Origin: Rhodocyclales bacterium
Lineage (GTDB): Bacteria > Pseudomonadota > Gammaproteobacteria > Burkholderiales > Rhodocyclaceae
Direction of reading: 5' to 3'
NCBI GenBank assembly: GCA_028292505.1
Contig: JAQGMF010000033.1
Coordinates: 1-64,000, forward strand
Length of the DNA stretch: 64,000 nucleotides
Shown: in pieces, positions 1-58,385 of the stretch
Position numbering within the stretch: position 1 is the first letter of the stretch
How the letters are laid out: each line of letters starts with the position of its first letter
The notes under the pieces: generated by a model
Told to the model about the DNA's origin: nothing
The model's input: only the letters and a program-made list of their open reading frames with translations
Database searches by the model: none
Program-made: the position numbers and the translations under genes

Positions 1-187
1 CGTTGAAGCCCTTGATCTGCGAGTTCAGGCGCTCGGAGATCGCCAGACCGGCGGCGTCATCCTTGGCGCTGTTGATGCGCAGGCCCGAAGAGAGCCGTTG
101 CAGCGAAGTGGCCAATGAGGCCTGCGAAGTGTTCAGGTTGCGTTGGGCGTTCAGCGACGCCACGTTGGTATTGATGGTCAGTGCCAT
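1..187 (-). CDS. fliC: Flagellin, N-terminal part (runs off window edge)
   Basis: The 62 visible residues begin [18 protein letters not shown] and continue through the [19 protein letters not shown] block, the conserved D0/D1 helix of bacterial flagellins that packs the filament core and is recognised for export. The start is certain: AAGGAGT lies 6 bases upstream of the ATG at 187. The C-terminal part lies outside the window. It is divergent from the glycosylation operon starting at 684, which fits flagellin being the acceptor of the sugar made there. Confidence 0.95.
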
Positions 188-291
188 TTTGTAACTCCTT
201 ATTGGGTTGCGTTTCTCACTTCAAACTGCACGGTGCGACTTTGATGCAGGTTTCAGCGCAGTCTTTCGAGTGTTTGTCACTCATGCCTGCT

Positions 292-319
292 ACATCGGCC
301 TGCTCATCGGAAAACTTGA
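292..319 (-). promoter_or_regulatory. Sigma-28 (FliA)-like promoter for flagellin
   Basis: Read on the minus strand, TCAAGTTT (312-319) and GCCGATGT (292-299) are separated by 12 bases. The known FliA consensus is TAAAGTTT, an 11-base spacer, then GCCGATAA. Seven of 8 and 6 of 8 bases agree, with one extra spacer base. It would give a leader of about 100 bases before the flagellin ATG at 187. The assignment is by eye. Confidence 0.5.
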
Positions 320-683
320 ATAGCGCTTGTTTTCCCCTGTTTAGTCCGTGTATGAATTCATTTACGGTTCTGCTAGAAATCTCTGCAGGGTGAGCTGGCT
401 TGCTAGGCATTTCCCGTCTCGGAAATGTGCTAAAAGCCCCATAAACAAGGGTCTTTATTGATTTCGGCCGCAAGTGAAAGCGTACTTTTCAAAGCACTTT
501 TGCATCGAACCGCGAGACCAAATCAGAAATAAGAAGGCTTTTACCGGGCATCTAGGCATATGTCTGTTTGCTGCGCCTGCTTAAGATCGGTGTCGTGTAG
601 AACGCACCTTGCAGGATGGCGTCACCCGATGGGGATGCCATAACAACAATACGCAACAATACGCAACGACACGGACCCGGACC
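320..683. other. Divergent intergenic region between fliC and maf
   Basis: AT-richer spacer without a convincing gene. An 85-residue minus-strand frame crosses it (216-473), but it overlaps the predicted fliC promoter and has no family resemblance. A tandem pair of the decamer ACAATACGCA is at 646-665, just before the maf start. The promoter of the maf-pse operon should be here, but I could not identify it. Confidence 0.5.
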
Positions 684-3811
<3,128 letters not shown>

Positions 3812-3839
3812 TTACAACCGGAGCCCTGACAGTCCATCC

Positions 3840-4997
3840 ATGATTCCTTATAGCCGTCAGGTCATTGAAGAAGACGATATCGCCGCGGTCGCAGCTGTGC
3901 TGCGTAGCGACTGGATCACGCAAGGCCCGAGCATTGCGCGTTTCGAGGCGGCCGTCACCGAGCACTGCGGCGCGAAGTATGGCTGCGCAGTGAGCAGCGC
4001 CACCGCCGGCTTGCATTTGGCATGTCTGGCTATGGGGCTCGGGCGCGGCATGCGTTTGTGGACCTCGCCGATCACCTTCGTCGCCTCCGCCAATTGCGGA
4101 CGCTATTGCGGTGCATGGGTGGACTTCGTCGACATTGATCCGCGCACCTATTGCATGAGCATCGAGTCGCTCACCGAAAAATTGACCGAAGCCGAGGCCC
4201 GTGGGCGACTGCCCGACATCATCGTCGCCGTCGATTTCGCTGGCCAGCCATGCCGTTGGGATAGGTTGGCACAGCTCAAGTCCCGCTTCGGCTTTCGCCT
4301 GATTCACGACGCCGCGCACAGCTTCGGCGCCGAGTATCGCGGCCAGCGTGTCGGCAGTCTGGGTGTCGCCGATTGCACCATATTCAGTTTTCACCCGGTC
4401 AAGATCCTGACGACGGGCGAGGGCGGCATGATCGTAACGGACGATCCGGCGCTACATAACGCCGTGTCGATGCTGCGCAGTCACGGCATTACGCGCGAAC
4501 CCGAGCAGATGCAACGCCAGGACGAAGGCGCCTGGTATTACGAACAGCAGGCGTTGGGCTTCAATTACCGCATGACAGATTTCTCCGCGGCACTGGGTAT
4601 TTCCCAACTCGCCAAGGTCGATCGTTTCATCGCGCGCAGACGCGAACTCGCTGCGCGCTACGACGTATTGTTGGCCGACATGGAACTCGAGCCGCCCTGG
4701 CAATCGCCGGATAGCGTATCGTCATACCATCTCTATCCAATCCTGCTGAAAGATTCCGAGACGCGCCACCGTGTTTTCGATCAGCTGCGTGCCGTTGGCA
4801 TACATGTCCAGGTGCACTACATTCCCGTGCATTTGCAACCGGACTTCATGCGTTCCGGTTTCAAGCGCGGCGATTTCCTCCTGGCCGAGGCCTACTATGA
4901 GCGCACCCTGTCGATTCCCTTGCACGCGGCGCTGACGGATGCCGAGCAGGATATGGTCGTTGAAGAATTGAAACGGGCGCTCGATGCAGAAGGCTGA
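3840..4997 (+). CDS. pseC: UDP-4-amino-4,6-dideoxy-N-acetyl-beta-L-altrosamine transaminase
   Basis: PLP-dependent DegT/DnrJ/EryC1-type aminotransferase that aminates C4 of the PseB product. It is 385 residues from the ATG at 3840. The Schiff-base lysine is predicted at K188 in the SFHPVK motif followed by GEGGMI, typical of PseC. The protein from 3840 begins MIPYSRQVIEEDDI like other PseC proteins. A GTG at 3801 with GGAG 5 bases upstream could add 13 residues and overlap pseB by 11 bases, so the start is uncertain. The rest of the assignment is firm. Confidence 0.93.
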   Translation: MIPYSRQVIEEDDIAAVAAVLRSDWITQGPSIARFEAAVTEHCGAKYGCAVSSATAGLHLACLAMGLGRGMRLWTSPITFVASANCGRYCGAWVDFVDIDPRTYCMSIESLTEKLTEAEARGRLPDIIVAVDFAGQPCRWDRLAQLKSRFGFRLIHDAAHSFGAEYRGQRVGSLGVADCTIFSFHPVKILTTGEGGMIVTDDPALHNAVSMLRSHGITREPEQMQRQDEGAWYYEQQALGFNYRMTDFSAALGISQLAKVDRFIARRRELAARYDVLLADMELEPPWQSPDSVSSYHLYPILLKDSETRHRVFDQLRAVGIHVQVHYIPVHLQPDFMRSGFKRGDFLLAEAYYERTLSIPLHAALTDAEQDMVVEELKRALDAEG

Positions 4998-5016
4998 ATG
5001 CAAGTGTATGGGCGGG

Positions 5017-5035
5017 GTGGGCACGGTGTGCCCAC
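5017..5035. repeat. Short perfect hairpin between pseC and the reductase gene
   Basis: GTGGGCAC and GTGCCCAC form an 8-base stem around a 3-base loop in the 49-base gap after pseC. There is no T-run, so it is not a clear terminator. A related GTGGGCA hairpin lies at 13664-13682, so it may belong to a small dispersed repeat family. Confidence 0.5.
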
Positions 5036-5046
5036 GTGTTGGCTAA

Positions 5047-5931
5047 ATGTCGGCCCTGGCACTCGGCACGGTCCAGTTCGGTCTCGACTACGGTCTGACC
5101 AATACGCATGGCCGAATCGCTGAAGCGGAAGCGGTTCGGATTCTGCAGACTGCGCAGGATGCTGGCATAAAATGGCTCGACACCGCCGCTGCTTACGGCA
5201 ATGCCGAAGAGCGTCTCGGCAGCCTCCTGGCGGGCGACAAACACTTCAGCGTTTGCAGCAAGACTCTGCCGACGCCGCCAGAGCACAGCGTGCTTGCCTC
5301 GGCGCAACGCAGTCTGGATGTCAGCCTGACGCGGCTGCGCCGTGATCATGTCGATGCCTTGCTGGTCCACGCCGTGAACGATCTGCTCGGAAGCGAAGGT
5401 GACGCGCTGTGGGCCTGGATGGGTACTGCGCGCGCACAAGGTATGGCACGCAGCATCGGCGTATCGGTCTACGATGCCGATGAAATCGACACCGTGCTCG
5501 CGCGCTACACACCGGACTGGATACAGCTGCCTTGCAGCGTGCTCGATCAACGCTTGATCAGTTCCGGACACCTCGCCAGCCTGGCGGATCGAGGCATCAA
5601 GGTACAGGCGCGCTCGCTATTGTTGCAGGGTGTCGTGAACATCCTGCCGCAGGCCCTGCCGGAGCCTTTGCAGACTTTGCACGAACCTCTGACGCGTTTG
5701 CGGCAGGCGGCGAGTCGGTACAGTATCGGCCCCATCGATATGTCGCTTGCATGGGCTGCCGCGCAACCCGAAATCGATCTCGCGGTGATCGGTGTGACGA
5801 CGGTGGATGAGCTGCGCCAATGTGCCGAAGCGTTTAGCCGCGATGTCGTCGCCGATTGGGTTACATTCGCTTGCGACGATGCTTTGGTAGTGGACCCGCG
5901 AAAATGGCCGCCGAAAATGAAAGCAGCATGA
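5047..5931 (+). CDS. Aldo/keto reductase in the nonulosonate operon
   Basis: A 294-residue NAD(P)H-dependent aldo/keto reductase. The catalytic tetrad is visible: D45 and Y50 in WLDTAAAYGN, K72 in SKTLP and H108 in LLVHAV. It lies between pseC and the nucleotidyltransferase gene with a 7-base gap downstream, so it is almost certainly part of the same operon. None of the six canonical Pse enzymes is an aldo/keto reductase. It may therefore reduce a keto group on the nucleotide sugar or finished nonulosonic acid, but the substrate cannot be read from sequence. Confidence 0.85.
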   Translation: MSALALGTVQFGLDYGLTNTHGRIAEAEAVRILQTAQDAGIKWLDTAAAYGNAEERLGSLLAGDKHFSVCSKTLPTPPEHSVLASAQRSLDVSLTRLRRDHVDALLVHAVNDLLGSEGDALWAWMGTARAQGMARSIGVSVYDADEIDTVLARYTPDWIQLPCSVLDQRLISSGHLASLADRGIKVQARSLLLQGVVNILPQALPEPLQTLHEPLTRLRQAASRYSIGPIDMSLAWAAAQPEIDLAVIGVTTVDELRQCAEAFSRDVVADWVTFACDDALVVDPRKWPPKMKAA

Positions 5932-5938
5932 GGGAAAC

Positions 5939-6706
5939 ATGAGCACGCGCATCCTCGCCATTCTGCAAGCCCGCATGTCCTCTTCGCGACTGCCCGGCAA
6001 GGTATTGTTGCCCCTGTTCGGCGAGCCCATGCTGGCCCGGCAGATCGAACGCTTGCGCCGCGCACGGCGCATCGATCAACTCATCGTTGCCACTTCGTCG
6101 GCACCCAGCGATGATCCGATTGCCGAGCAATGCGCCAAGCTGGGCGTGACCTGCCACCGCGGTTCGCTCGACGACGTGCTCGACCGATTCGAACAAGCCG
6201 CGCGGCCCTATGCGCCTCAGCATGTCGTGCGCCTCACGGCCGATTGCCCGCTGGCAGACCCGGAACTTATCGATCAGCTCATTGCGAAGCATCTCGACAG
6301 CGGCGCGGATTACACCACCAACGCCAATCCACCGAGCTTCCCCGATGGCCTAGATGCTGAAGTCATACGCTATGCCGTGTTGCACATTGCATGGCGCGAA
6401 GCGAAACGCTTGTCCGAGCGCGAGCACGTGACGCTATATATTGCCAGTCAGTCGGATCGCTTTTTCATCGAGACGCTGAGCAGCGAGACGGATTTATCGG
6501 CGCTACGCTGGACCGTGGACGAGGCCGACGATCTGGCGCTGGTCGAGCGCATCTACGCGGCACTGTACCCGCGCAATGCGGCCTTCACCACACGGGATGT
6601 CTTGGCCCTGCTGGAAGAGCAGCCTGAATTGCGCACGATGAATACGTCTCACCGCCGAAACGAGGGTTTGGAAAAATCATTGGAGCAGGAAAAGCACACC
6701 CAATGA
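5939..6706 (+). CDS. SpsF-like cytidylyltransferase family protein, possible PseF substitute
   Basis: A 255-residue protein of the CTP_transf_3 superfamily in its SpsF branch. The N-terminal nucleotide-binding motif QARMSSSRLPGK is at residues 10-21, followed by VVRLTADCPL, where SpsF proteins have the metal-binding Asp. True PseF/NeuA proteins begin with an ARGGSKxIPxKN motif, which is not seen here. Given its position among pse genes, CMP activation of the sugar is the most economical role, but this is inference. The start is supported by AGGGAAAC before the ATG. Only 7 bases separate it from the reductase gene. Confidence 0.8.
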   Translation: MSTRILAILQARMSSSRLPGKVLLPLFGEPMLARQIERLRRARRIDQLIVATSSAPSDDPIAEQCAKLGVTCHRGSLDDVLDRFEQAARPYAPQHVVRLTADCPLADPELIDQLIAKHLDSGADYTTNANPPSFPDGLDAEVIRYAVLHIAWREAKRLSEREHVTLYIASQSDRFFIETLSSETDLSALRWTVDEADDLALVERIYAALYPRNAAFTTRDVLALLEEQPELRTMNTSHRRNEGLEKSLEQEKHTQ

Positions 6707-6709
6707 ATT

Positions 6710-6779
6710 GTCATCCCGGCGAAAGCCGGGATCCAGAGGCGTCCCACCGTACTGGATTCCAGCCTTCGCCGGAATGACG
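6710..6779. repeat. Class A palindromic repeat (GTCATTCCCGC type)
   Basis: Two opposed copies of a GTCATCCCGGCGAAAGCCGG-type unit around a short centre. Other copies in this window are at 11241, 24835, 25408, 38252, 51245, 53041 and 58307. It fills the gap before the aminotransferase gene and creates a false in-frame N-terminal extension of that gene (PAFAGMTAK), which should not be annotated as coding. Confidence 0.85.
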
Positions 6780-6809
6780 GCAAAAATCTTACGCATGTTG
6801 GAGAGTTTC

Positions 6810-8099
6810 ATGTCTGACCGCTATCACCAATCCGAAGCACTGCTCGAACGTGCCTTGCAAACTATTCCGCTGGGCTCGCAGACCTTCAGCAAGAGCAAGA
6901 CGCAATATCCCTATGGCGTGTCGCCGTATTTCATCGAGCATGGCAAAGGCTGCCGCGTGCAGGATGCCGACGGCAATGAGTACATCGATTTCGTGATGAG
7001 TCTTGCCGCAGTCACGCTCGGTTACAGCGACCCCGACGTGACGGCCGCAGTGCGCAGTCAGCTTGATGATGGCGTCATTTTCTCGCTGCCACACCGTCTC
7101 GAAATGGAAGTCGCGGAAAAGCTGCGCGAATGCGTGCCCTGCGCCGAGATGACGCGCTTCGGCAAGAACGGTTCGGATGCCACGTCCGGCGCGATCCGCG
7201 TGGCGCGCGCTTTCACCGGACGCGATCGCGTTGCCACCTGCGGCTACCATGGTTGGCAGGACTGGTATATCGGCTCGACGGCGCGCAACAAGGGCGTGCC
7301 GAAAGCTGTGAGCGAACTGACGCACACATTTCCCTACAACGATGCAGAGGCGCTTGACAGATTGCTGAGCACCCACAAGGGCGAATTTGCCGCTGTCATA
7401 CTCGAACCGATGAATGTGGCCGAGCCGTTGCCGGGTTATCTCGAAGCCTTGCGCGACATCACGCACAGGCACGGCGCCTTGCTGGTCTTCGACGAAACCA
7501 TCACGGGGTTCCGTTACGAACTCGGTGGCGCGCAGGCGCGTTTCGGCGTCACACCCGACCTCGCCACCTTCGGCAAGGGGATGGCCAATGGTTACCCGGT
7601 TTCGGCGGTATGCGGCAAGGCCGAGTACATGCACATGATGGAAGAGATCTTCTTCTCCTTCACTTTTGGTGGTGAATTGCTGTCGCTGGCTGCCGCCAAG
7701 ACGACGATGGAAAAACTGCAGCGCGAGCCGGTGATCGCCACACTCAAGTCGCGTGGTGCGCGCATCAAGACATCGCTTGCTGAGAAGATCGTGCAGCACG
7801 GCGTCGGCGAATTCGCGTCGCTGGCCGGCGATGCAACCTGGTCGTTCTTCGCCTTGCGCGACACGCCGCAATACAGTGCGTGGCATATCAAGACGCTGTT
7901 CCTGCAGGAGATGTTCGCGCGCGGCATCATCACGCTCGGCACGCACAACATCAGTTACGCGCACGGCGAGGCTGACGTGGACCGTCTGCTTGCCGTGTAC
8001 GATGAAGTGCTGCCCATCCTGAATGATGCTGTCATTAACGGCAGACTTGAAAAGCTCTTGCGCTGCGCGCCGCTCGAACCACTCTTCAAGATACGTTGA
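6810..8099 (+). CDS. Class-III PLP aminotransferase, glutamate-1-semialdehyde aminomutase-like
   Basis: A 429-residue fold-type I, class-III aminotransferase resembling glutamate-1-semialdehyde 2,1-aminomutase. Visible are GSDATSGAIRVAR (phosphate-binding region), DETITGFR (cofactor Asp) and the Schiff-base lysine K256 in FGKGMANGYP. The start at 6810 has GGAG a few bases upstream; frame upstream of 6795 is repeat DNA. Its place between the SpsF-like gene and pseG argues for a role in nonulosonate modification rather than haem synthesis, where hemL usually sits elsewhere. Such enzymes recur in nonulosonate clusters but lack a settled role. Confidence 0.8.
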   Translation: MSDRYHQSEALLERALQTIPLGSQTFSKSKTQYPYGVSPYFIEHGKGCRVQDADGNEYIDFVMSLAAVTLGYSDPDVTAAVRSQLDDGVIFSLPHRLEMEVAEKLRECVPCAEMTRFGKNGSDATSGAIRVARAFTGRDRVATCGYHGWQDWYIGSTARNKGVPKAVSELTHTFPYNDAEALDRLLSTHKGEFAAVILEPMNVAEPLPGYLEALRDITHRHGALLVFDETITGFRYELGGAQARFGVTPDLATFGKGMANGYPVSAVCGKAEYMHMMEEIFFSFTFGGELLSLAAAKTTMEKLQREPVIATLKSRGARIKTSLAEKIVQHGVGEFASLAGDATWSFFALRDTPQYSAWHIKTLFLQEMFARGIITLGTHNISYAHGEADVDRLLAVYDEVLPILNDAVINGRLEKLLRCAPLEPLFKIR

Positions 8100-8125
8100 G
8101 CAACAGGTTGAGCAATACGTCGAAC

Positions 8126-9112
8126 ATGCAAGTCGTCATCCGTGCCGATGCATCGCGCGAGATTGGCCACGGCCACGTCATGCGCTGCTTGTCTCTCGCC
8201 GCTTCGCTGCGCAGGCGTGGTGCCGAGGTGCGGTTTTTCTGCCGCTCGCTTGAAGGGCACGCATTCTCGACGGTGGGACAGGCGGGCTTTCATTGCCAGC
8301 CAGTCGGCGAGGACACGCCCATTCCACCCTGCGACTGGCTGGTCGTCGATCACTACGGGCTGGACGCTAGCTGGGAATCGGCTCAGCGCAAGAACGCCAA
8401 GCAAATCCTGGTCATCGACGATCTCGCCAATCGGCCGCACGATTGCGATGTGTTGCTCGACCAGAACCTGAATCCGGAAGGCCCCGCGCGCTATCTGCAG
8501 TGGATTCCGACAGATTGCCAGCAACTGCTTGGCCCGCACTACGCGCTGTTGCACAAGAATTTTGCGATCGAACGTGCCGGGCTGGTGTCACGCACCGGGC
8601 AGATCAGGAAGGTGCTGATCTGCTTTGGGGGCAGCGACGCGCCGGACGCAACCGGCTGTGTTGTCGACGTGCTGGCCGCAGCCTTTCCGCATCTCATCCT
8701 CGACATCGTGGCAGGGCCGGCCAACACGCATGCTGCCCAGTTGCAGGAACGTTGCGTCTGGCATCCGCTGATTACGCTCAGTGTTGCCGTCAATGACATG
8801 GCGCAGCGCATGGCACATGCGGATCTGTTTGTCGGCGCTGGGGGTTCGATGACCTGGGAGCGTGCTGCATTGGCCTTGCCGGGCATCACGCTGTCCATCG
8901 CCAACAATCAGGCGATGCTCTGTGCCGCGCTGGCGGAGCGCGGCGCCGGGATCGATCTCGGCCCCATCGAAGATTTCGATGAAAAGGCCTTGCAGGAACA
9001 AGTTTCCCGCCTGCTCGACGACGCGCCGCGCATGCGCGATATGTCCGAGAAACTTGGTGCGCTCTGCGACGGCCGCGGCGCCGGGCGTGTATCAAAAATC
9101 ATGATGGCTTGA
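8126..9112 (+). CDS. pseG: UDP-2,4-diacetamido-2,4,6-trideoxy-beta-L-altropyranose hydrolase
   Basis: Removes UDP to give 2,4-diacetamido-2,4,6-trideoxy-L-altrose, the substrate of pseudaminic acid synthase. A 328-residue GT-B-fold protein with the diagnostic N-terminus IRADASREIGHGHVMRCL, the RADA..GxGHxxRC signature with catalytic His, and a C-terminal GAGGSMTWE nucleotide-binding motif. The start at 8126 follows the family. A TTG at 8096 overlapping the aminotransferase stop is possible but would add a non-homologous leader. It is the last recognisable pse gene of the operon. Confidence 0.92.
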   Translation: MQVVIRADASREIGHGHVMRCLSLAASLRRRGAEVRFFCRSLEGHAFSTVGQAGFHCQPVGEDTPIPPCDWLVVDHYGLDASWESAQRKNAKQILVIDDLANRPHDCDVLLDQNLNPEGPARYLQWIPTDCQQLLGPHYALLHKNFAIERAGLVSRTGQIRKVLICFGGSDAPDATGCVVDVLAAAFPHLILDIVAGPANTHAAQLQERCVWHPLITLSVAVNDMAQRMAHADLFVGAGGSMTWERAALALPGITLSIANNQAMLCAALAERGAGIDLGPIEDFDEKALQEQVSRLLDDAPRMRDMSEKLGALCDGRGAGRVSKIMMA

Positions 9113-9271
9113 GCGGCGTTGCCAAGCGACGGTCGGCCTCAAACCACGGCAGGATGCAGCCGATAATTTCTGAGCTGCGCTATCGGTTCACGCCATTTTT
9201 TACACGATGAGCTGAACGCGTGTAGCGCTCATCTGTCTTCGTTGTGCCTTTCGCTATAAAGAGTCGCCTGC

Positions 9272-11209
9272 ATGAAAAAAATCCTGCTCAATAAGCTGTC
9301 GCAAAAGCCCTGGCCCCACGTTTTCATCGCTGGCGCGATGGTGGTGTTGGTGGTGTTGGCTTTCGCATTTCACATCAAACCGCAGTCTGCGCAGCCGGTT
9401 GCGCTCAACGCGATGCTGCAGCAGATCCGCAATGCGCCGGACACCTGGAAGGCCACCGAAGGCGACGTGTCCATGCTGATTCTGGACATGCAGAAGAACA
9501 ACGTGGCAGGTGTGGCGGTTGCGCCCTCGGGCATGTTCGTGACGGCCAAATCCGGCAAAAAGTATTTCGTCGCCGACGGCACGGGACGCTTCGCTGCGCT
9601 GGCGCTGGTCTCATATCACAAGGGCGAGACGGATGCGTTTCCGCTGGCCATGCTCGACAAGGACATCGAGCCGCCTTACAACTGGCGCGCCGACGTCGGT
9701 CTGCTGCTGACCTTATCTCTGCTGGGAGTCTTGTTGCTGCAAGGTTTCCGCATGACGGGTGGCGGCTTCAAATTCTCCAAGACCGAAACCCCCGTGACTT
9801 TCGACGATGTGATCGGCGCCAACGAAGCGAAGTCGGCGCTGCGCGACATCATGAGTTACCTCAAGGATGCCAAGGGCTTTACCGAGCTGGGCGCCCGGCC
9901 GCCGAAGGGCGTGTTGCTGTCGGGCCCACCGGGGACGGGCAAGACGCAACTGGCCAAAGCATTGGCGGGGGAGTGCGGTGTCAACTTCATTGCCGCGACT
10001 GGCGGCGATTTCTCGGCGATGTTTCTGGGTGTGGGCTCGTCACGCGTGAAATCGCTTTTCCGCAAAGCACGAAAAAATGCTCCATGCATAGTCTTTCTCG
10101 ACGAAATAGATGGCATCGGTCGTCGTACCACGACGGAAACGGGTGGCCCCGCTGAGTCGGAAGGCAATCGCATCATCAACCAGATTCTTGCCGAGATGGA
10201 TGGCTTCAGCTCCACCAGCGGTGTCATCGTCATCGGTGCGACCAACTATCCGGACCTGGTCGATCCAGCGCTGCTACGCGAAGGGCGCTTCGACCGCAAG
10301 ATACAGGTCGTATTGCCTGACGTATCCGACCGCACTGCGCTGTTCGAGCTGTATGCGAAGAATCTCAAGAGTGTCGGCGAACTCGACTACCCGCAGCTGG
10401 GGCGCATGACCACCGGCTTGACCCCCGCCGCCATCGCCTACGTCGTCAATCACGCGGCGCTGATCACGGCACGCAATCAGGAAAAAGAAGTCTCGATGCG
10501 CAATTTCGTCGAGGCTATCGAAGTATGCAGAATGGGTGAGAAGAACGGCGCCGGTTCGGCACTCACTGAGGCCGAGCGCGAGCGTATCGCCGTGCACGAA
10601 GCGGGTCACGCCATCATGGCGCAGGTGTTGGGCTGTGGTCAGGTCGAGAAGGTGACTATCCTGTCGCGTGGTGCAGCGCTCGGGGTGACGCTGGTGACGC
10701 AGAAGGAAGACAAACATCTGCACCTGAAGTCCGAACTCGAACATCGCATACAGATGCTGCTCGGTGGCCGCGCTGCCGAACTCATCACCTACAACGATGC
10801 GTCGAGCGGTGCGTCGAGCGATCTCAAGGAAGCCTCCAAGCTGGCACTGTCGATGGTCGCCACACTCGGCCTGGGCGACAACGGTACGCTGTTCAGCCTC
10901 GAAGCGCTGACTGCGCTCAATATCAAGCCGGATACGACCATCGCCGTTGCCGAAGCCGAAGCGGTACTGACCACACAAAACGAGCGCTGCCTGGCAACGC
11001 TGCGCGAACTCGAAGGCGCGCTGCAAGACCTCACCGCGCAGCTGCTGGAACACGAAACCATCGACGGCGCAGAAGTGGCCCGTGCCATCGCCGCGGCACG
11101 TGCTGCGCACGAAGAGCGGCGTAGCACCGATAGTCCCATGCGCGGCGCGATGCTGGCGTCGAAACTTTTGCCTGTGGAAGAGATGGTTGTTCAGGGGCGG
11201 GTTGCCTGA
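9272..11209 (+). CDS. FtsH-type membrane AAA+ zinc metalloprotease (paralogue)
   Basis: A 645-residue protein with full FtsH architecture: membrane segment at about 17-35, a periplasmic domain, a second membrane segment near 145-162, then an AAA+ module and an M41 peptidase. Walker A (GPPGTGKT, about 217-225), Walker B (VFLDEID, about 273), the arginine-finger region DPALLREGRFDR and the zinc site HEAGH (442-446) with D517 are intact. The pore loop reads AMFLGVG. The N-terminus and periplasmic part differ from housekeeping FtsH, so this is probably a second copy. It lies 159 bases after pseG; co-transcription is unproven. Confidence 0.88.
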   Translation: MKKILLNKLSQKPWPHVFIAGAMVVLVVLAFAFHIKPQSAQPVALNAMLQQIRNAPDTWKATEGDVSMLILDMQKNNVAGVAVAPSGMFVTAKSGKKYFVADGTGRFAALALVSYHKGETDAFPLAMLDKDIEPPYNWRADVGLLLTLSLLGVLLLQGFRMTGGGFKFSKTETPVTFDDVIGANEAKSALRDIMSYLKDAKGFTELGARPPKGVLLSGPPGTGKTQLAKALAGECGVNFIAATGGDFSAMFLGVGSSRVKSLFRKARKNAPCIVFLDEIDGIGRRTTTETGGPAESEGNRIINQILAEMDGFSSTSGVIVIGATNYPDLVDPALLREGRFDRKIQVVLPDVSDRTALFELYAKNLKSVGELDYPQLGRMTTGLTPAAIAYVVNHAALITARNQEKEVSMRNFVEAIEVCRMGEKNGAGSALTEAERERIAVHEAGHAIMAQVLGCGQVEKVTILSRGAALGVTLVTQKEDKHLHLKSELEHRIQMLLGGRAAELITYNDASSGASSDLKEASKLALSMVATLGLGDNGTLFSLEALTALNIKPDTTIAVAEAEAVLTTQNERCLATLRELEGALQDLTAQLLEHETIDGAEVARAIAAARAAHEERRSTDSPMRGAMLASKLLPVEEMVVQGRVA

Positions 11210-11240: not shown

Positions 11241-11266
11241 GCCATTCCCGCCTTTGCGGGAATGAC
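11241..11266. repeat. Class A palindromic repeat, single unit
   Basis: Perfect hairpin with stem CATTCCCGC / GCGGGAATG, located between the convergent FtsH-like gene and the DNA glycosylase gene. It may act as a bidirectional terminator, but no T-run is present. Confidence 0.75.
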
Positions 11267-24834: not shown

Positions 24835-24914
24835 GTCATTCCCGCGAAGGCGGGAATCCAGTGGCTTTGGCAAAGTAACGAACGACACTGGATTCCCGCC
24901 TTCGCGGGAATGAC
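24835..24914. repeat. Class A palindromic repeat, paired units
   Basis: GTCATTCCCGCGAAGGCGGG and its inverted partner (CCCGCCTTCGCGGGAATGAC) enclose about 40 bases. It is the best-preserved copy with 38252-38337. It creates a false open frame upstream of the DUF2177 gene. Confidence 0.88.
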
Positions 24915-28105: not shown

Positions 28106-29152
28106 ATGTTCGAAATCGGAGGCCGCCCGGTCGGCCTGCAAGCGGCGCCCTTCTTCATCGCCGAAATGAGCGGTAATCACAACGGCTCGCTGGATCGTGC
28201 GCTGGAAATCGTCGACGCCATTGCCAATGCCGGCGCGCACGCGCTGAAGCTGCAGACCTACACCGCCGACACGATGACGCTCAACATCCCGCACGGCGAG
28301 TTTCTGATCCAGGACGAGAAGAGCCTCTGGAACGGCCGCACCTTGTACGATCTCTACGAGGAAGCACACACTCCCTGGGCCTGGCATGCGCCGATCTTCG
28401 AGCGCGCCCGCAAGCGCGGCATGCTGGCCTTCTCGACGCCGTTCGATACCACTGCCGTGGATTTTCTCGCCGGCTTGGACGTGCCTTGCTACAAGGTTGC
28501 CAGTTTCGAAAATATTGATTTGCCATTGATCCGCAAAGTCGCCTCGATGGGTAAACCGATGATCATCTCGACGGGCCTCGCATCGCTCGTCGAAATTGCC
28601 GAAGCGGTGGACGCCGCACGCGGTGCCGGTTGCAAGGATCTGGTGATACTCAAATGCACCAGTACCTATCCGGCATCTCCAGCGGATAGCAATCTGCGCA
28701 CGATTCCGTACATGCGCGAAGTGCTCGGCGTGGAAGTCGGCTTGTCGGATCACACCTTGGGCATCGGCGCAGCGGTTGCCGCCGTGGCAATGGGCGCGAC
28801 CGTCATCGAGAAACACGTGACGCTGCGGCGCGCCGATGGCGGCGTGGACAGCGCCTTCTCACTGGAGCCGCAAGAGGTACGCATGCTGGTTGACGAGACC
28901 GAACGCGCACGCCAGGCCATGGGCATCGTGCGTTTCGGCGCCACCGAACGCGAGCGCGAGTCGCTGGTCTTCCGGCGTTCGTTGTATGTGGTGAAGGACG
29001 TGGCAGCGGGCGAAGTGTTCAGCGCGGAAAATATGCGCGCCATCCGCCCCGGTCTGGGTCTGCCGCCCAAGCACCAGGAACACATCACCGGCCGGCGCGC
29101 GTCACGCGACATTGCACGCGGTACGCCGATGAGCTGGGAGTTGCTGGCCTAG
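28106..29152 (+). CDS. pseI: Pseudaminic acid synthase
   Basis: Condenses 2,4-diacetamido-2,4,6-trideoxy-L-altrose with phosphoenolpyruvate to pseudaminic acid. A 348-residue protein: NeuB-type TIM barrel (residues 1-280, with EMSGNHNGSL, LKLQTYTADT, KCTSTYPA, GLSDHTLG, EKHVTL) and a C-terminal SAF/antifreeze-like domain (about 290-348, RRSLYVVKDVAAGE). The GAGGT ribosome site is close to the ATG. The gene is separated from pseBCG by about 19 kb, stands alone, and must be co-expressed for the pathway to work. The stop codon starts a class C repeat. Confidence 0.95.
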   Translation: MFEIGGRPVGLQAAPFFIAEMSGNHNGSLDRALEIVDAIANAGAHALKLQTYTADTMTLNIPHGEFLIQDEKSLWNGRTLYDLYEEAHTPWAWHAPIFERARKRGMLAFSTPFDTTAVDFLAGLDVPCYKVASFENIDLPLIRKVASMGKPMIISTGLASLVEIAEAVDAARGAGCKDLVILKCTSTYPASPADSNLRTIPYMREVLGVEVGLSDHTLGIGAAVAAVAMGATVIEKHVTLRRADGGVDSAFSLEPQEVRMLVDETERARQAMGIVRFGATERERESLVFRRSLYVVKDVAAGEVFSAENMRAIRPGLGLPPKHQEHITGRRASRDIARGTPMSWELLA

Positions 29153-38251: not shown

Positions 38252-38337
38252 GTCATTCCCCGCGAAGGCGGGAATCCAGCGACGTTAACCAACGGACAAG
38301 GGCAAAGCCACTGGATTCCCGCCTTCGCGGGAATGAC
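38252..38337. repeat. Class A palindromic repeat, paired units
   Basis: GTCATTCCCCGCGAAGGCGG and the inverted partner CCCGCCTTCGCGGGAATGAC flank about 45 bases. It lies between the recN relic and the convergent metallophosphoesterase gene. Confidence 0.88.
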
Positions 38338-44250: not shown

Positions 44251-44406
44251 ATGACCATGCCAGCGGCAAATCTTGCCGCATTGCCGTTGCCCGCAGATCC
44301 AATGAACAAGCGCCTCTCGCGCGAAGTGCCGTCGCTGTTGGTTCTTGCGCAACTGGCAGAGGACTTGCTATCTCCTGAGCAAACAGTTCAGGAGTTCGCT
44401 CGATGA
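44251..44406 (+). CDS. Possible small protein coupled to flgK
   Basis: A 51-residue frame from the ATG at 44251 to a TGA that overlaps the flgK start as ATGA. Its second half (LSREVPSLLVLAQLAEDLLS) has a normal helical protein composition. No similarity is recognised; it does not look like the end of FlgJ, which often precedes flgK, nor like FlgM. The flgK ribosome binding site lies inside it. It could be a leader peptide or a chance frame. Confidence 0.35.
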   Translation: MTMPAANLAALPLPADPMNKRLSREVPSLLVLAQLAEDLLSPEQTVQEFAR

Positions 44407-46454
44407 GCCTAATGAGTATCAGTCTCACAGCCCTCAATGCCGCGCAGGCAGGGCTGACGACGACCGGCCACAACATCGCGAACGCTTCGACCGCGGGTTA
44501 CAACCGTCAGGAAGTAGTCCAGTCCACACAGACTCCGCAATTCTCGGGAGTAGGGTTCTTCGGTCAAGGGACGCAGATCGATACCGTGAAGCGCGTCTAC
44601 AGCCAGTTCTTAGGTAGTCAGGTACTGACAGCGGATAGCGCCAAGACGGATTTTTCCGCCTACAACGCCGAGATCAAGCAGATCGACAATCTGTTGTCGG
44701 ACAACACCACGGGTTTGTCGCCTGCCATGCAGAGTTTCTTCGCCGGCATGCAGGATGTGTCGACCAATCCGTCGAGTATTCCATCGAGGCAGTCCCTGTT
44801 GTCATCGAGCGAATCGCTGGTCGATGAATTTCATTCTCTCAGTCAGCGTTTGACGGAAATCCGTAGCGGCGTTCAAACGCAGCTCTCCACTTCGGCGCAG
44901 AACGTGACTGCATTGGCCAAACAGGTCGCGGATCTCAATTATCGCATCGGCATAACAGAGACGGGTGGCACTACGCAGCCCGCCAACGATCTGCATGATC
45001 AGCGCGATGGTCTCATCGCTCAGATCAACCAGGAGGTGGGCGTTACTTCCTCCGTACAAGCCGATGGTTCGATCAATCTGTTCTTCGGTTCCGGGCAACC
45101 GCTGGTTGTCGGGCAGACAGCATATGGTTTGAGTGTCGGGCAATCGCCCACCAATCCGCAGGAACAGGCAGTGTTCTCAACGGTGGGCGCGGCGCAAATA
45201 CTGGTCTCGGACGATCTGATCACCGGCGGCCGCATGGGCGGGCTGATCCGCTTTCGCAATGGCGCACTGGACACCGCACAAAACGAGCTGGGTCGTATGG
45301 CGGTAACCATCTCGAAAAACGTCAATGACCAAAACGCACTCGGTCAGGACCTCGACGGCAAACTGGGTGGCAAGTTCTTCAATGTGCTGACGCCCGATGT
45401 GAAGCAGTTGACCGGTTCGACGACGCTGGGCCTCACCGCACAATATACGCAAGCTCAGGATCTCAAGAACGAGGACTACACGCTGACTTTCCGGACCGCG
45501 ACGGGTTATACCCTGCGTCGCAATTCCGATGGCGTTACTGTTTATAACGGTGCGACGCCGCCGGACGGCACCACGACCGACCCGACCAATACCGATCAGA
45601 CTCTGCGCTATGGTTTTTCGTTGAGCGTCGCTGGCGTGCCAGTCGACGGCACCACCATCCTGATCCAACCGACACGCAATGCGGCGCAGAACGTGCAACT
45701 GGCGATCCAAGACACCCGCAAGATCGCTGCTGGCGCACCGTTCGCGCTGGCGGCCGAACCGAGCAACACTGGCACGGCGAAAATCGGCAACGGTGCGACT
45801 GTGGCCACTACCGGTTTCGACACGGTCGGTGCAGATGGCAAGTCAGACTTCGGCGACATCACCGTAACTTTCAACGCGGCAACGAAGACCTTCAAGGCGG
45901 TGAACTCGGCGGGTACGGTCGTGCCGTTGTTGGTGCGCAGCGGCGTCAGTACGACTGACCCGGCAGATCCGGGAACGCCCTCAGGTTCATTGGCGGCCGA
46001 CAATTCATACGACCCGACTGTTAACTCTGCAGGCAAGACATTCGAAATCGGCTCGCCGGCGCTTTCCTTCCAGATCAGCGGCGATCCCAGCAATGGCGAC
46101 ACCTTTCGCATCTCGATCAATCCGCAAGGCACCTCGGACAACCGCAACGCCGTCGCAATGGGGGCGCTACAAAATGCCAAGACGATGCTCAATGGCGGCG
46201 CTAACTATGGCTACGCCTATGCGCAACTGGTGAGCAATATAGGTACCTTGTCGCGCGATGCGGATGTGGGCCAAAGTGCGCAGCAAGGCCTCTACGATCA
46301 AGCAGTTGCCAACCAGCAAAGTTTGTCGGGGGTAAATCTGGATGAAGAAGCAGCCAATTTGCTCCGTTATCAACAGGCATACCAAGCCGCAGCGCGCGCC
46401 ATGAGCGTCGCAAAGAGCTTGTTCGACACCATTCTGGCCGTTGCTCAAGGCTAA
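44403..46454 (+). CDS. flgK: Flagellar hook-associated protein 1 (HAP1)
   Basis: Forms the first hook-filament junction layer. A 683-residue protein with the N-terminal flg_bb_rod block MSISLTALNAAQAGLTTTGH and NIANASTAGYNRQ, plus the C-terminal helix VNLDEEAANLLRYQQAYQA. It is longer than the 547 residues of E. coli, the surplus being a Thr/Gly/Ala-rich central domain (about 330-590). AGGAG stands upstream of the ATG. It starts a flgK-flgL unit detached from the flgB-J genes. Confidence 0.95.
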   Translation: MSLMSISLTALNAAQAGLTTTGHNIANASTAGYNRQEVVQSTQTPQFSGVGFFGQGTQIDTVKRVYSQFLGSQVLTADSAKTDFSAYNAEIKQIDNLLSDNTTGLSPAMQSFFAGMQDVSTNPSSIPSRQSLLSSSESLVDEFHSLSQRLTEIRSGVQTQLSTSAQNVTALAKQVADLNYRIGITETGGTTQPANDLHDQRDGLIAQINQEVGVTSSVQADGSINLFFGSGQPLVVGQTAYGLSVGQSPTNPQEQAVFSTVGAAQILVSDDLITGGRMGGLIRFRNGALDTAQNELGRMAVTISKNVNDQNALGQDLDGKLGGKFFNVLTPDVKQLTGSTTLGLTAQYTQAQDLKNEDYTLTFRTATGYTLRRNSDGVTVYNGATPPDGTTTDPTNTDQTLRYGFSLSVAGVPVDGTTILIQPTRNAAQNVQLAIQDTRKIAAGAPFALAAEPSNTGTAKIGNGATVATTGFDTVGADGKSDFGDITVTFNAATKTFKAVNSAGTVVPLLVRSGVSTTDPADPGTPSGSLAADNSYDPTVNSAGKTFEIGSPALSFQISGDPSNGDTFRISINPQGTSDNRNAVAMGALQNAKTMLNGGANYGYAYAQLVSNIGTLSRDADVGQSAQQGLYDQAVANQQSLSGVNLDEEAANLLRYQQAYQAAARAMSVAKSLFDTILAVAQG

Positions 46455-46481
46455 GCGCAGGGAGCAGGAAGAGGTAATGCC

Positions 46482-47699
46482 ATGAGAATCAGTACATCGC
46501 AAATCTACAACGTTAATGTCGGCAACATCACGCGGCAGCAGGGCGATCTGCTCAAACTGCAAACTCAGTTGTCGACCGGCAACCGCGTCGTATTGCCAAG
46601 CGACGATCCGGTTGCAGCGGCCGGCGCGCTGGAGGTATCGCAGGCCACGGCGCAGGTGGCGCTGAACAAGAATGCACAAGGCTCGGCGAACGATACGCTC
46701 AGCTCACTGGACAGCACGCTCAGTTCGGTCGGCGATCTGGTTTCTTACGTGCACGAACGGGCCATCCAGGCTGGCAGCGCCGCGCTGAGCCAGGCGGATC
46801 GCAATTCGCTCGCCTCCGATATGCAGGCGCAATTCGATAGCCTCATGTCGATCGCGAACTCGACGGATGCAAACGGTCAGCATCTTTTTGCAGGATTCAA
46901 GGGTGACGTGCAACCATTCAATGGCACGCTGTCGGGCGTCACTTATGCGGGTGACCAGGGTCAGCGCACGGTGCCGGTATCGAACACACGTAATATGCCG
47001 GTGAGTTTGAACGGCCAAGAAGTGTTCATGGATATCCCGACGTCCGGACAAACCTTCAGTGCCCTGCCTTCGCTGGGTAACACGGGCACCGGCACTGTCT
47101 CTTCGACAGCTACCGTCGGCGCCTATGCGGGTGGGCAATACGGCATCCGCTTTACGTCGGCGACGACCTACAACGTTTTCGATCGCGCCGCCGATCCGGC
47201 CATGACCGGCGTGCCACTGGCAAGCGGCGCCTATACCGCAGGCTCGCCGATCAACCTGCCGCCAGCACCGGCGACGGCGCAAATCCAGGTCACGCTCAAT
47301 GGCACGCCGGCCACCTCGGACACATTTTCGGTCAACCCGAGCAGCGGTGTCACGAATGCATTCAAGATGATCTCCGACTTCATTACGAATCTGAAAACCG
47401 GCGGTACGGGTCCGGCTTATTACGCCAGCATTCAGGACACCATGTCGCAAGCCGACAGTGCACAGCAGAATGTCTTGCGGCTGCGCGCGCAAACCGGCTC
47501 GCGCCAGGTCGAGCTGCAATCGCTGGGCAACGTCTCGGACAATCTCACGCTGCAATATGCCGACACCACACAGCGACTGGTGGGGCTGGACTATGCAAAA
47601 ACCATATCCGACTACCAATTGCAGCAGACCTATCTTGACGCTTCACGCAACAGCTTCGTGAAGACCACCAGCCTTAGCCTGTTCAGCTTTCTGACATGA
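46482..47699 (+). CDS. flgL: Flagellar hook-associated protein 3 (HAP3)
   Basis: Second junction protein between hook and flagellin. A 405-residue protein of flagellin-like architecture: MRISTSQIYNVNVGNITRQQ and LQTQLSTGNRVVLPSDDPVAA at the N-terminus, and a C-terminal helix with VGLDYAKTISDYQLQQTYLDA. It is longer than the 317 residues of E. coli because of an enlarged central domain (about 150-320). It begins 27 bases after flgK. Confidence 0.95.
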   Translation: MRISTSQIYNVNVGNITRQQGDLLKLQTQLSTGNRVVLPSDDPVAAAGALEVSQATAQVALNKNAQGSANDTLSSLDSTLSSVGDLVSYVHERAIQAGSAALSQADRNSLASDMQAQFDSLMSIANSTDANGQHLFAGFKGDVQPFNGTLSGVTYAGDQGQRTVPVSNTRNMPVSLNGQEVFMDIPTSGQTFSALPSLGNTGTGTVSSTATVGAYAGGQYGIRFTSATTYNVFDRAADPAMTGVPLASGAYTAGSPINLPPAPATAQIQVTLNGTPATSDTFSVNPSSGVTNAFKMISDFITNLKTGGTGPAYYASIQDTMSQADSAQQNVLRLRAQTGSRQVELQSLGNVSDNLTLQYADTTQRLVGLDYAKTISDYQLQQTYLDASRNSFVKTTSLSLFSFLT

Positions 47700-51244: not shown

Positions 51245-51312
51245 GTCATTCCGGCGAAGGCCGGAATCCAGTGTCGCGTGCAATCTGGATCCCGGCCTTC
51301 GCCGAGATGACG
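51245..51312. repeat. Class A palindromic repeat, paired units
   Basis: GTCATTCCGGCGAAGGCCGG and the inverted ATCCCGGCCTTCGCCGAGAT unit fill the gap between ureC and ureE. Confidence 0.85.
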
Positions 51313-53040: not shown

Positions 53041-53066
53041 GTCATTCCCGCTTTCGCGGGAATGAC
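53041..53066. repeat. Class A palindromic repeat, single unit
   Basis: GTCATTCCCGC / GCGGGAATGAC hairpin in the ureB-ureC gap (ureB is upstream in transcription). Confidence 0.8.
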
Positions 53067-58306: not shown

Positions 58307-58385
58307 GTCATTCCCGCGAACGCGGGAATCCACTTGATAAGCAAGACTTGTGGGGCACGTGGATTCCCGTTTGCACGGGAATGAC
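58307..58385. repeat. Class A palindromic repeat, paired units
   Basis: GTCATTCCCGCGAACGCGGG and the inverted TGGATTCCCGTTTGCACGGG-type partner fill the urtB-urtC gap. Confidence 0.85.

Follow-up and report, generated by a model that had tools for sequence, protein, structure and literature searches.

A recurrent aldo/keto reductase, SpsF-type and class III aminotransferase gene set in a flagellin nonulosonate operon of a Rhodocyclales bacterium: a candidate module for C8 amination of pseudaminic acid

We analysed the first 64,000 nucleotides (hereafter the window, i.e. the whole stretch of DNA studied) of contig JAQGMF010000033.1 of a Rhodocyclales bacterium (assembly GCA_028292505.1), in which three genes encoding an aldo/keto reductase (AKR), an SpsF-type protein of the CTP_transf_3 family and a class III aminotransferase (AT) are embedded in an operon of the pseudaminic acid (Pse) pathway. 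The closest tested system is that of Acinetobacter baumannii prophages, where EpaA (542 aa, a CTP_transf_3 domain followed by an AKR domain) and EpaB (262 aa, a short-chain dehydrogenase/reductase, SDR, of the adh_short_C2 type) convert Pse5Ac7Ac into 8-epi-Pse5Ac7Ac, the 8-epimer having been demonstrated by nuclear magnetic resonance after introduction of both epaA and epaB (PMC12053666, 2025). EpaA/EpaB resembles the window in its CTP_transf_3 and AKR pair acting on pseudaminate and differs in its third partner, an SDR instead of a class III AT, and in the fusion of the two domains; the likeness was drawn through EpaA-like loci, whose AKRs fall in the clade of the window AKR. The gene order of the window was printed in 2021 for the polar flagellin glycosylation islands of Aeromonas Group I, with no function given in the accessible text (PMC7874193). 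As judged from published gene order, subgroup IA islands read pseB, pseC, keto reductase, pseF, class III aminotransferase, pseG, lack pseH as the window does, and have maf adjoining the flagellin genes; pseI lies within these islands and closes them, whereas that of the window is 19 kb away (PMC7874193). The genes in question occur in 90 of the 96 Group I strains, i.e. all except the six strains that make up subgroups IF and IG (PMC7874193).

Other precedents are more distant. The pse cluster of Vibrio B9-25K2 has an SpsF-like cytidylyltransferase-AKR fusion beside PseB, PseC and PseG, but it is followed by a dehydrogenase, and the accessible text mentions no AT (PMC7371886); the fragments of its PseAc2 are unlike those of M. 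viscosa and would fit an 8-epimer. SpsF of Bacillus subtilis, also a CTP_transf_3 protein, is needed to pass a nonulosonate to the spore surface, but serves a legionaminic acid pathway for which the accessible text describes neither an AKR nor a class III AT (PMC7439481). The acinetaminic acid module (aciABCD) was considered and set aside, as it uses different enzymes, AciB and AciE being SDRs in the available description. The O-polysaccharide of Flexibacter maritimus contains an 8-amino-3,5,7,8,9-pentadeoxynonulosonic acid, assigned manno and tentatively L (PMC3210612). That sugar is an aminated pseudaminate. Amination at C8 is also known from the Kdo8N pathway of Shewanella (KdnA/KdnB with KdsB), where an oxidoreductase and a pyridoxal phosphate (PLP)-dependent transaminase put an amine in place of the hydroxyl at C8 of an ulosonic acid before CMP activation. 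This pathway is an analogue of the trio and not a homologue: KdnA (5k8b) is a DegT-family relative of PseC and matches PseC, while the window AT belongs to class III (PF00202), and 5k8b was outside the best 60 matches of this AT. In the openly available passages that pair 8-amino with pseudaminic, subscription papers lying outside the search, we found no proposal of the C8-amination pathway considered here, and a search on the O-antigen cluster of Tenacibaculum (Flexibacter) maritimum showed no paper naming that species among the matches listed.

The gene set PseB-PseC-AKR-SpsF-AT-PseG is present on the + strand of the window, in the order that an earlier sequence-only reading (the original prediction) had given. 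The operon and the distant PseI gene comprise:
609..2801, + strand, Maf-like flagellin nonulosonate transferase (PF20157, 62 bits; PF01973, MptE-like, 113 bits)
2798..3811, + strand, PseB, UDP-GlcNAc 4,6-dehydratase (inverting) (TIGR03589, 549 bits, cut-off 408)
3801..4997, + strand, PseC, C4 aminotransferase (TIGR03588, 513 bits, cut-off 424)
5047..5931, + strand, AKR (PF00248, 116 bits; tetrad D45 Y50 K72 H108)
5939..6706, + strand, SpsF-type CTP_transf_3 protein (PF02348, 112.5 bits)
6710..6778, no strand, palindrome resembling repetitive extragenic palindromic (REP) elements, between the SpsF and AT genes (two arms among 12 pattern matches in the window)
6810..8099, + strand, class III AT of glutamate-1-semialdehyde aminomutase (GSAM) type, 429 aa (PF00202, 172 bits; PLP lysine present)
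8096..9112, + strand, PseG, UDP-sugar hydrolase (TIGR03590, 263.5 bits, cut-off 154)
28106..29152, + strand, PseI, pseudaminic acid synthase (TIGR03586, 486 bits, over cut-off)

On balance, and by analogy with EpaA/EpaB, we take the AKR-SpsF-AT trio to be a C8-amination module for pseudaminic acid, a reading that we hold with modest confidence. By their model scores PseB, PseC, PseG and PseI are true equivalogs, in agreement with the original prediction, which had called the first three canonical. Of the canonical PseBCHGIF pathway, PseF and PseH are missing: in the genome, which is 92.7 % complete, no equivalog scored over cut-off for PseF (best 37 and 26 bits against 205.7, the SpsF-type protein accounting for 26) or for PseH (best 46.5 bits against 93.1). 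The AKR and the AT could be placed in broad families only (PF00248 and PF00202). The AKR is not KidO, as it scored 168.7 bits against the KidO model (PRK14863; cut-off 244), and the AT stayed under the cut-off of PRK06209 (422 against 486 bits). Nor is the AT HemL: it reached 250 bits with TIGR00713 (cut-off 527), and the true housekeeping HemL lies on another contig (C51, 611 bits).

The argument for C8 rests on an exchange of partners around the AKR and cytidylyltransferase, and is the new element of this analysis, gene order and EpaA/EpaB reaction being already in print. Epimerisation at C8 requires a C8 ketone. We asked which genes neighbour AKR/cytidylyltransferase pairs that were found through AKR or SpsF and not through AT, using 32 loci with an AKR and a cytidylyltransferase within 6.5 kb; they were drawn from 71 loci found via AKR or SpsF or listed as neighbourhoods (some of them AT-matched too), the other 39 having no AKR with a cytidylyltransferase near. 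A class III AT was the only partner at 21 loci and an EpaB-like SDR at six; no locus had both and five had neither. When all loci were counted (n = 92), including those found through AT and duplicates (L070/L171, L036/L169 and L039/L167, at zero branch length), AT alone was found at 80, SDR alone at six, neither at five and both at one (L033, with a weak SDR). Locus L239 has the EpaA/EpaB architecture, i.e. a 545 aa CTP_transf_3-AKR fusion and then a 263 aa adh_short_C2 protein, between PseC and PseG, and a Priestia megaterium plasmid has the order pseC, SpsF, AKR, SDR, pseG, pseH, pseI. In both, the SDR follows the AKR/SpsF genes and precedes PseG, which is the slot of the window AT; the order in Bacillus litorisediminis (L053) is PseC, AKR, SpsF, AT, PseG, PseI.

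An AKR tree was built from 101 locus domains and that of the window, out of 104 AKR rows; only domains of more than 220 aa were used, and a single one for each locus and partner label. The locus AKRs grouped in a single clade with a local support of 1.0, separate from five other AKRs that had been included; L148, which has no partner, and L151, an AT locus lacking pse genes, were exceptions and fell outside. SDR-type AKRs were nested within the clade, which the EpaA-like loci L239, L253, L254 and L255 share with the window AKR, and the Priestia SDR-type AKR had as its sister group two AT-type AKRs of Bacillaceae (support 0.96; identity 43-46 %); deep nodes were poorly supported. The AKR catalytic tetrad, assigned by the family motif, was retained in 83 or 84 of the 84 AT-type sequences and in all nine SDR-type ones (including L159, L160 and the mixed L033); the residue table held just five non-nonulosonate AKRs, which were poorly aligned in its columns. 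The presumed PLP lysine of the AT and its aspartate, likewise assigned by motif, were found in 112 of 112 ATs. The same AKR with two exchangeable partners suggests that AT-type and SDR-type loci share an 8-keto intermediate.

EpaA-like genes were also sought elsewhere: phage records and viral contigs gave no full-length relative, and 85 genomes of one order gave only the L239 genome already known. Four clusters (L161, L165 and their siblings L159 and L160) encode an AKR and, in a frame 794-844 aa long, a protein resembling PseI, together with a PseF-type protein in at least three of the four and an EpaB-like SDR in two; from their gene content they look like EpaA/EpaB-like sets in separate genes.

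The arrangement of the window is not unique. An AT scan with one genome per species gave 486 relatives, of which the best 80 were kept, and gene patterns were counted in the 57 of these loci that were at least 15 kb long, all being ascertained on AT. PseC was present in 52 of them, PseB in 49, AKR in 48, PseI in 47, SpsF in 45 and PseG in 43, and 22 had an acetyltransferase resembling PseH. Among 398 sampled Pseudomonadota genomes, an AT at an E value of 1e-120 or better was found in 14, not counting that of the window. PseB, PseC, PseG or PseI lay within about 9.5 kb of it in 11, so that the expected co-occurrence of the trio with pse genes held and its occurrence mainly without them did not; the other three had either a PseF-type protein, or an SpsF, or a Maf accompanied by AKR and SpsF. 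A viral scan for the AT found one contig only (48 % identity). The closest relative found (L002, AT 95 % identical) has a methyltransferase gene (6220-6903) between AKR and SpsF, which the window lacks.

In the same 57 loci, SpsF and PseF nearly excluded each other (SpsF only 44, PseF only 6, both 1, neither 6), and the SpsF-type protein is therefore most likely the CMP-nonulosonate synthetase that replaces PseF here. Such a role was proposed for SpsF-type proteins in the Vibrio cluster (PMC7371886) and is suggested by B. subtilis spsF mutants, in which legionaminic acid is made and not transferred (PMC7439481). The three genes are also fused in several combinations: AKR, SpsF and AT in one 982 aa frame (L027), SpsF-AT (L035, L070 and, among sampled genomes, L163, L217, L218, L220, L224 and others) and AKR-SpsF (L074). 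As far as sequences tell, the trio genes work together. Frames joining PseI to an SpsF-type domain were seen at L231 (3565-5415, 616 aa) and L232 (6200-8077, 625 aa).

In the pathway that we propose, PseB, PseC, PseG and PseI, by family membership, would build a pseudaminate-type nonulosonic acid, the AKR would oxidise its C8 hydroxyl to a ketone, and the class III AT would turn the 8-ketone into an amine, the substrate of both being the free or the CMP-bound sugar. The SpsF-type enzyme, in a step well supported by the near-exclusion of PseF, would load the product, 8-amino-8-deoxypseudaminate (5,7,8-triamino-3,5,7,8,9-pentadeoxynonulosonate), onto CMP, and the Maf-like enzyme would transfer it to flagellin. 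The 8-keto sugar would be the branch point, reduced by an SDR to the 8-epimer or aminated by an AT to the 8-amine. The original prediction had the AKR and the AT reduce and aminate a further position; the change at a further position is supported, but its reduction is probably an oxidation of C8 that precedes amination, if EpaA/EpaB is a guide. We give an even chance to the broader claim, namely a widespread module making CMP-8-amino-8-deoxypseudaminate, which arose by a swap between AT and EpaB-type reductase (in either direction), decorates flagella, and surface glycans of other kinds, with a triamino nonulosonate in many phyla, and would be the route by which 8-amino nonulosonates like the one in F. 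maritimus are made.

Flagellin glycan masses bear on this proposal. A. hydrophila AH-1, a cited example of the small Aeromonas islands, should on that account carry the trio. A compound of odd nominal mass holds an odd number of nitrogens, and pseudaminate has two. The AH-1 flagellin glycan has a mass of 403 Da and gives Pse-like fragments, of which three are one m/z unit off those of an A. caviae Pse derivative (PMC4691044). By the odd-mass rule, 403 Da fits a third nitrogen. AH-1 was the only strain found with both the expected trio and a measured flagellin glycan (PMC4691044), and this mass is unlike the 316 of Pse5Ac7Ac, as had been anticipated. For comparison, flagellin of A. caviae Sch3N, a strain with its pse genes next to the O-antigen locus, gave m/z 317.1 (PMC9290775).

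The most serious alternative, though an unlikely one, is that the AKR and the AT act at another carbon or on an earlier intermediate (such as at C4 of the nonulosonic acid, or while the sugar is still a hexose) and yield a different amino sugar or epimer. The O-antigen cluster of Legionella serogroup 6 has AKR, SpsF-like, GSAM-like, PseG, NeuB, HisH and HisF genes (PMC3694923), and a homopolymer of 5-acetamidino-7-acetamido-4-epilegionaminic acid, without a C8 amine, is reported for Legionella pneumophila non-1 serogroups. Against such a shift of site stand C8 as the position modified by EpaA/EpaB, the only tested system with this pair, the AKRs of EpaA-like loci inside the clade of trio AKRs, and the fusion to a cytidylyltransferase, which argues for action after PseI. 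It is somewhat less probable still that the sugar is unchanged and that the AKR and the AT make an amino-acyl or N-acyl donor decorating ordinary pseudaminate: 403 Da equals Pse5Ac7Ac plus 87, compatible with a nitrogen-bearing acyl group, and acyl, formyl and methyl transferases occur among the neighbours, but the window's operon has no ligase or acyltransferase, and direct AKR-SpsF-AT fusion and SDR/AT exchange fit sugar chemistry better.

We find it improbable that the operon makes ordinary Pse5Ac7Ac, or a mono-acetyl form with PseH missing, while the AKR and the AT ride along from unrelated metabolism. PseB, PseC, PseG and PseI are indeed canonical, and a mono-N-acetyl Pse of 274 Da was proposed in Shewanella flagellin (PMC3765264); S. 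oneidensis, which has this sugar, is not usable as a comparison, with PseB and PseC reported and no clear PseH, PseG, PseI or PseF. Yet the AKR and the AT retain their catalytic residues, fuse to the cytidylyltransferase and stay beside pse genes across phyla in the loci found through AT. A product that is the 8-epimer or the 8-keto sugar, the AT only forming the 8-keto intermediate reversibly, seems very improbable: EpaA/EpaB do yield the 8-epimer, but epimerisation needs no transaminase, and no EpaB-like SDR was found in the window's operon, the SDR matches of its own genome lying elsewhere at 87 bits or less.

Several points weigh against C8 amination itself. The chemistry of the trio is a prediction, and the AKR as C8 oxidase an analogy with EpaA/EpaB, in which either half may be the one that oxidises. 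Without PseH the acyl group on the 7-amine is unexplained, as in Aeromonas subgroup IA. The SDR loci number only six, the AT-type set owes its size in part to the 80 loci that were found through AT, and it counts L151 in spite of its outlying AKR and its lack of pse genes. Then there are the five of 32 loci with neither partner: L213 stops at a contig end just past SpsF, L159 and L160 are siblings of two SDR loci, and L148 and L149 are different clusters. The top-ranked formula of the AH-1 authors has no nitrogen, their masses being low-resolution (PMC4691044). Finally, if serogroup 6 of Legionella has only the 4-epilegionaminic polymer, the trio makes no 8-amine there, and this may be a counterexample.

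Taken together, the gene set is real, recurrent and partly known, and we judge it, with some reserve, to be a variant way of making nonulosonates, in which pseudaminate is most likely aminated at C8. Trio genes recur in flagellin glycosylation islands and nonulosonate clusters of several phyla, and no assigned reaction was found in the accessible literature. C8 amination would assign a reaction to the AKR and the AT, explain the lack of PseF in such clusters, and make one ketone intermediate branch to epimer or amine by exchange of a single enzyme. It would leave a mass signature, hydroxyl to amine, of -0.984 Da per sugar with odd nominal masses, and a free amine on the filament exterior would alter its charge. 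Beyond the original prediction, the present analysis adds SpsF in the place of PseF, the missing PseH, the location of PseI elsewhere, and the gene order already printed for Aeromonas (PMC7874193).

The seven + strand genes from the Maf-like gene (609) to PseG (9112) overlap or are separated by short gaps, except between SpsF and AT. The AKR and the GSAM-like enzyme thus do lie in one operon with a Maf transferase, as originally described, and the tight spacing claimed for it holds for most junctions, the palindrome at 6710-6778 separating SpsF from AT. The AT start placed at 6708 had to be abandoned: the frame from there runs through this palindrome, and ATG 6810 is the most likely start, with ATG 6795 as an alternative. 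For PseG, ATG 8126 is the likely start. The Maf-like protein is the only PF20157 match of the genome and scored 59 bits against the PseD model, under the cut-off of 670. PseI, 19 kb downstream of the operon, stands alone and is the only PF03102 match in the genome. Promoter and terminator scans of 1-9400 were barely above shuffled sequences (5 against 4.2 and 11 against 9.0). The REP-like pattern occurs 12 times in the window, where 0.00 occurrences would be expected, at:
6710-6778, 11242-11266, 24835-24914, 38313-38337, 51245-51311, 53042-53066 and 58307-58385, REP-like repeats

FlgK and FlgL are encoded at 44403-47699, and a flagellin gene lies beside the operon at the contig end:
2..187, - strand, flagellin gene truncated by the contig end, N-terminal piece only (PF00669 match over cut-off, G000:C8:8-175, and translation)
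The operon is thus divergent from this flagellin gene, whose product is the likely acceptor of its sugar. Directly 3' of PseG, an FtsH-like AAA protease paralogue (9272-11209) scored 464.5 bits against the FtsH model (cut-off 600), and an AAA/M41 protease also follows PseG in L002. In two further loci, a Methylomagnum ishizawai plasmid (L257, 5235-11073) and L222 (6413-10430), an SpsF-type protein, a transketolase/DXS-like thiamine pyrophosphate enzyme and a class III aminotransferase are adjacent, followed in the former by an SDR and a NeuB-family synthase; these sets may encode a further sugar acid pathway that is not yet described. Two contigs (G000:C8:8-175 and G000:C36:8-175) open with part of a flagellin N-terminus at one and the same offset, so that the assembly was probably interrupted by flagellin genes present as repeats.

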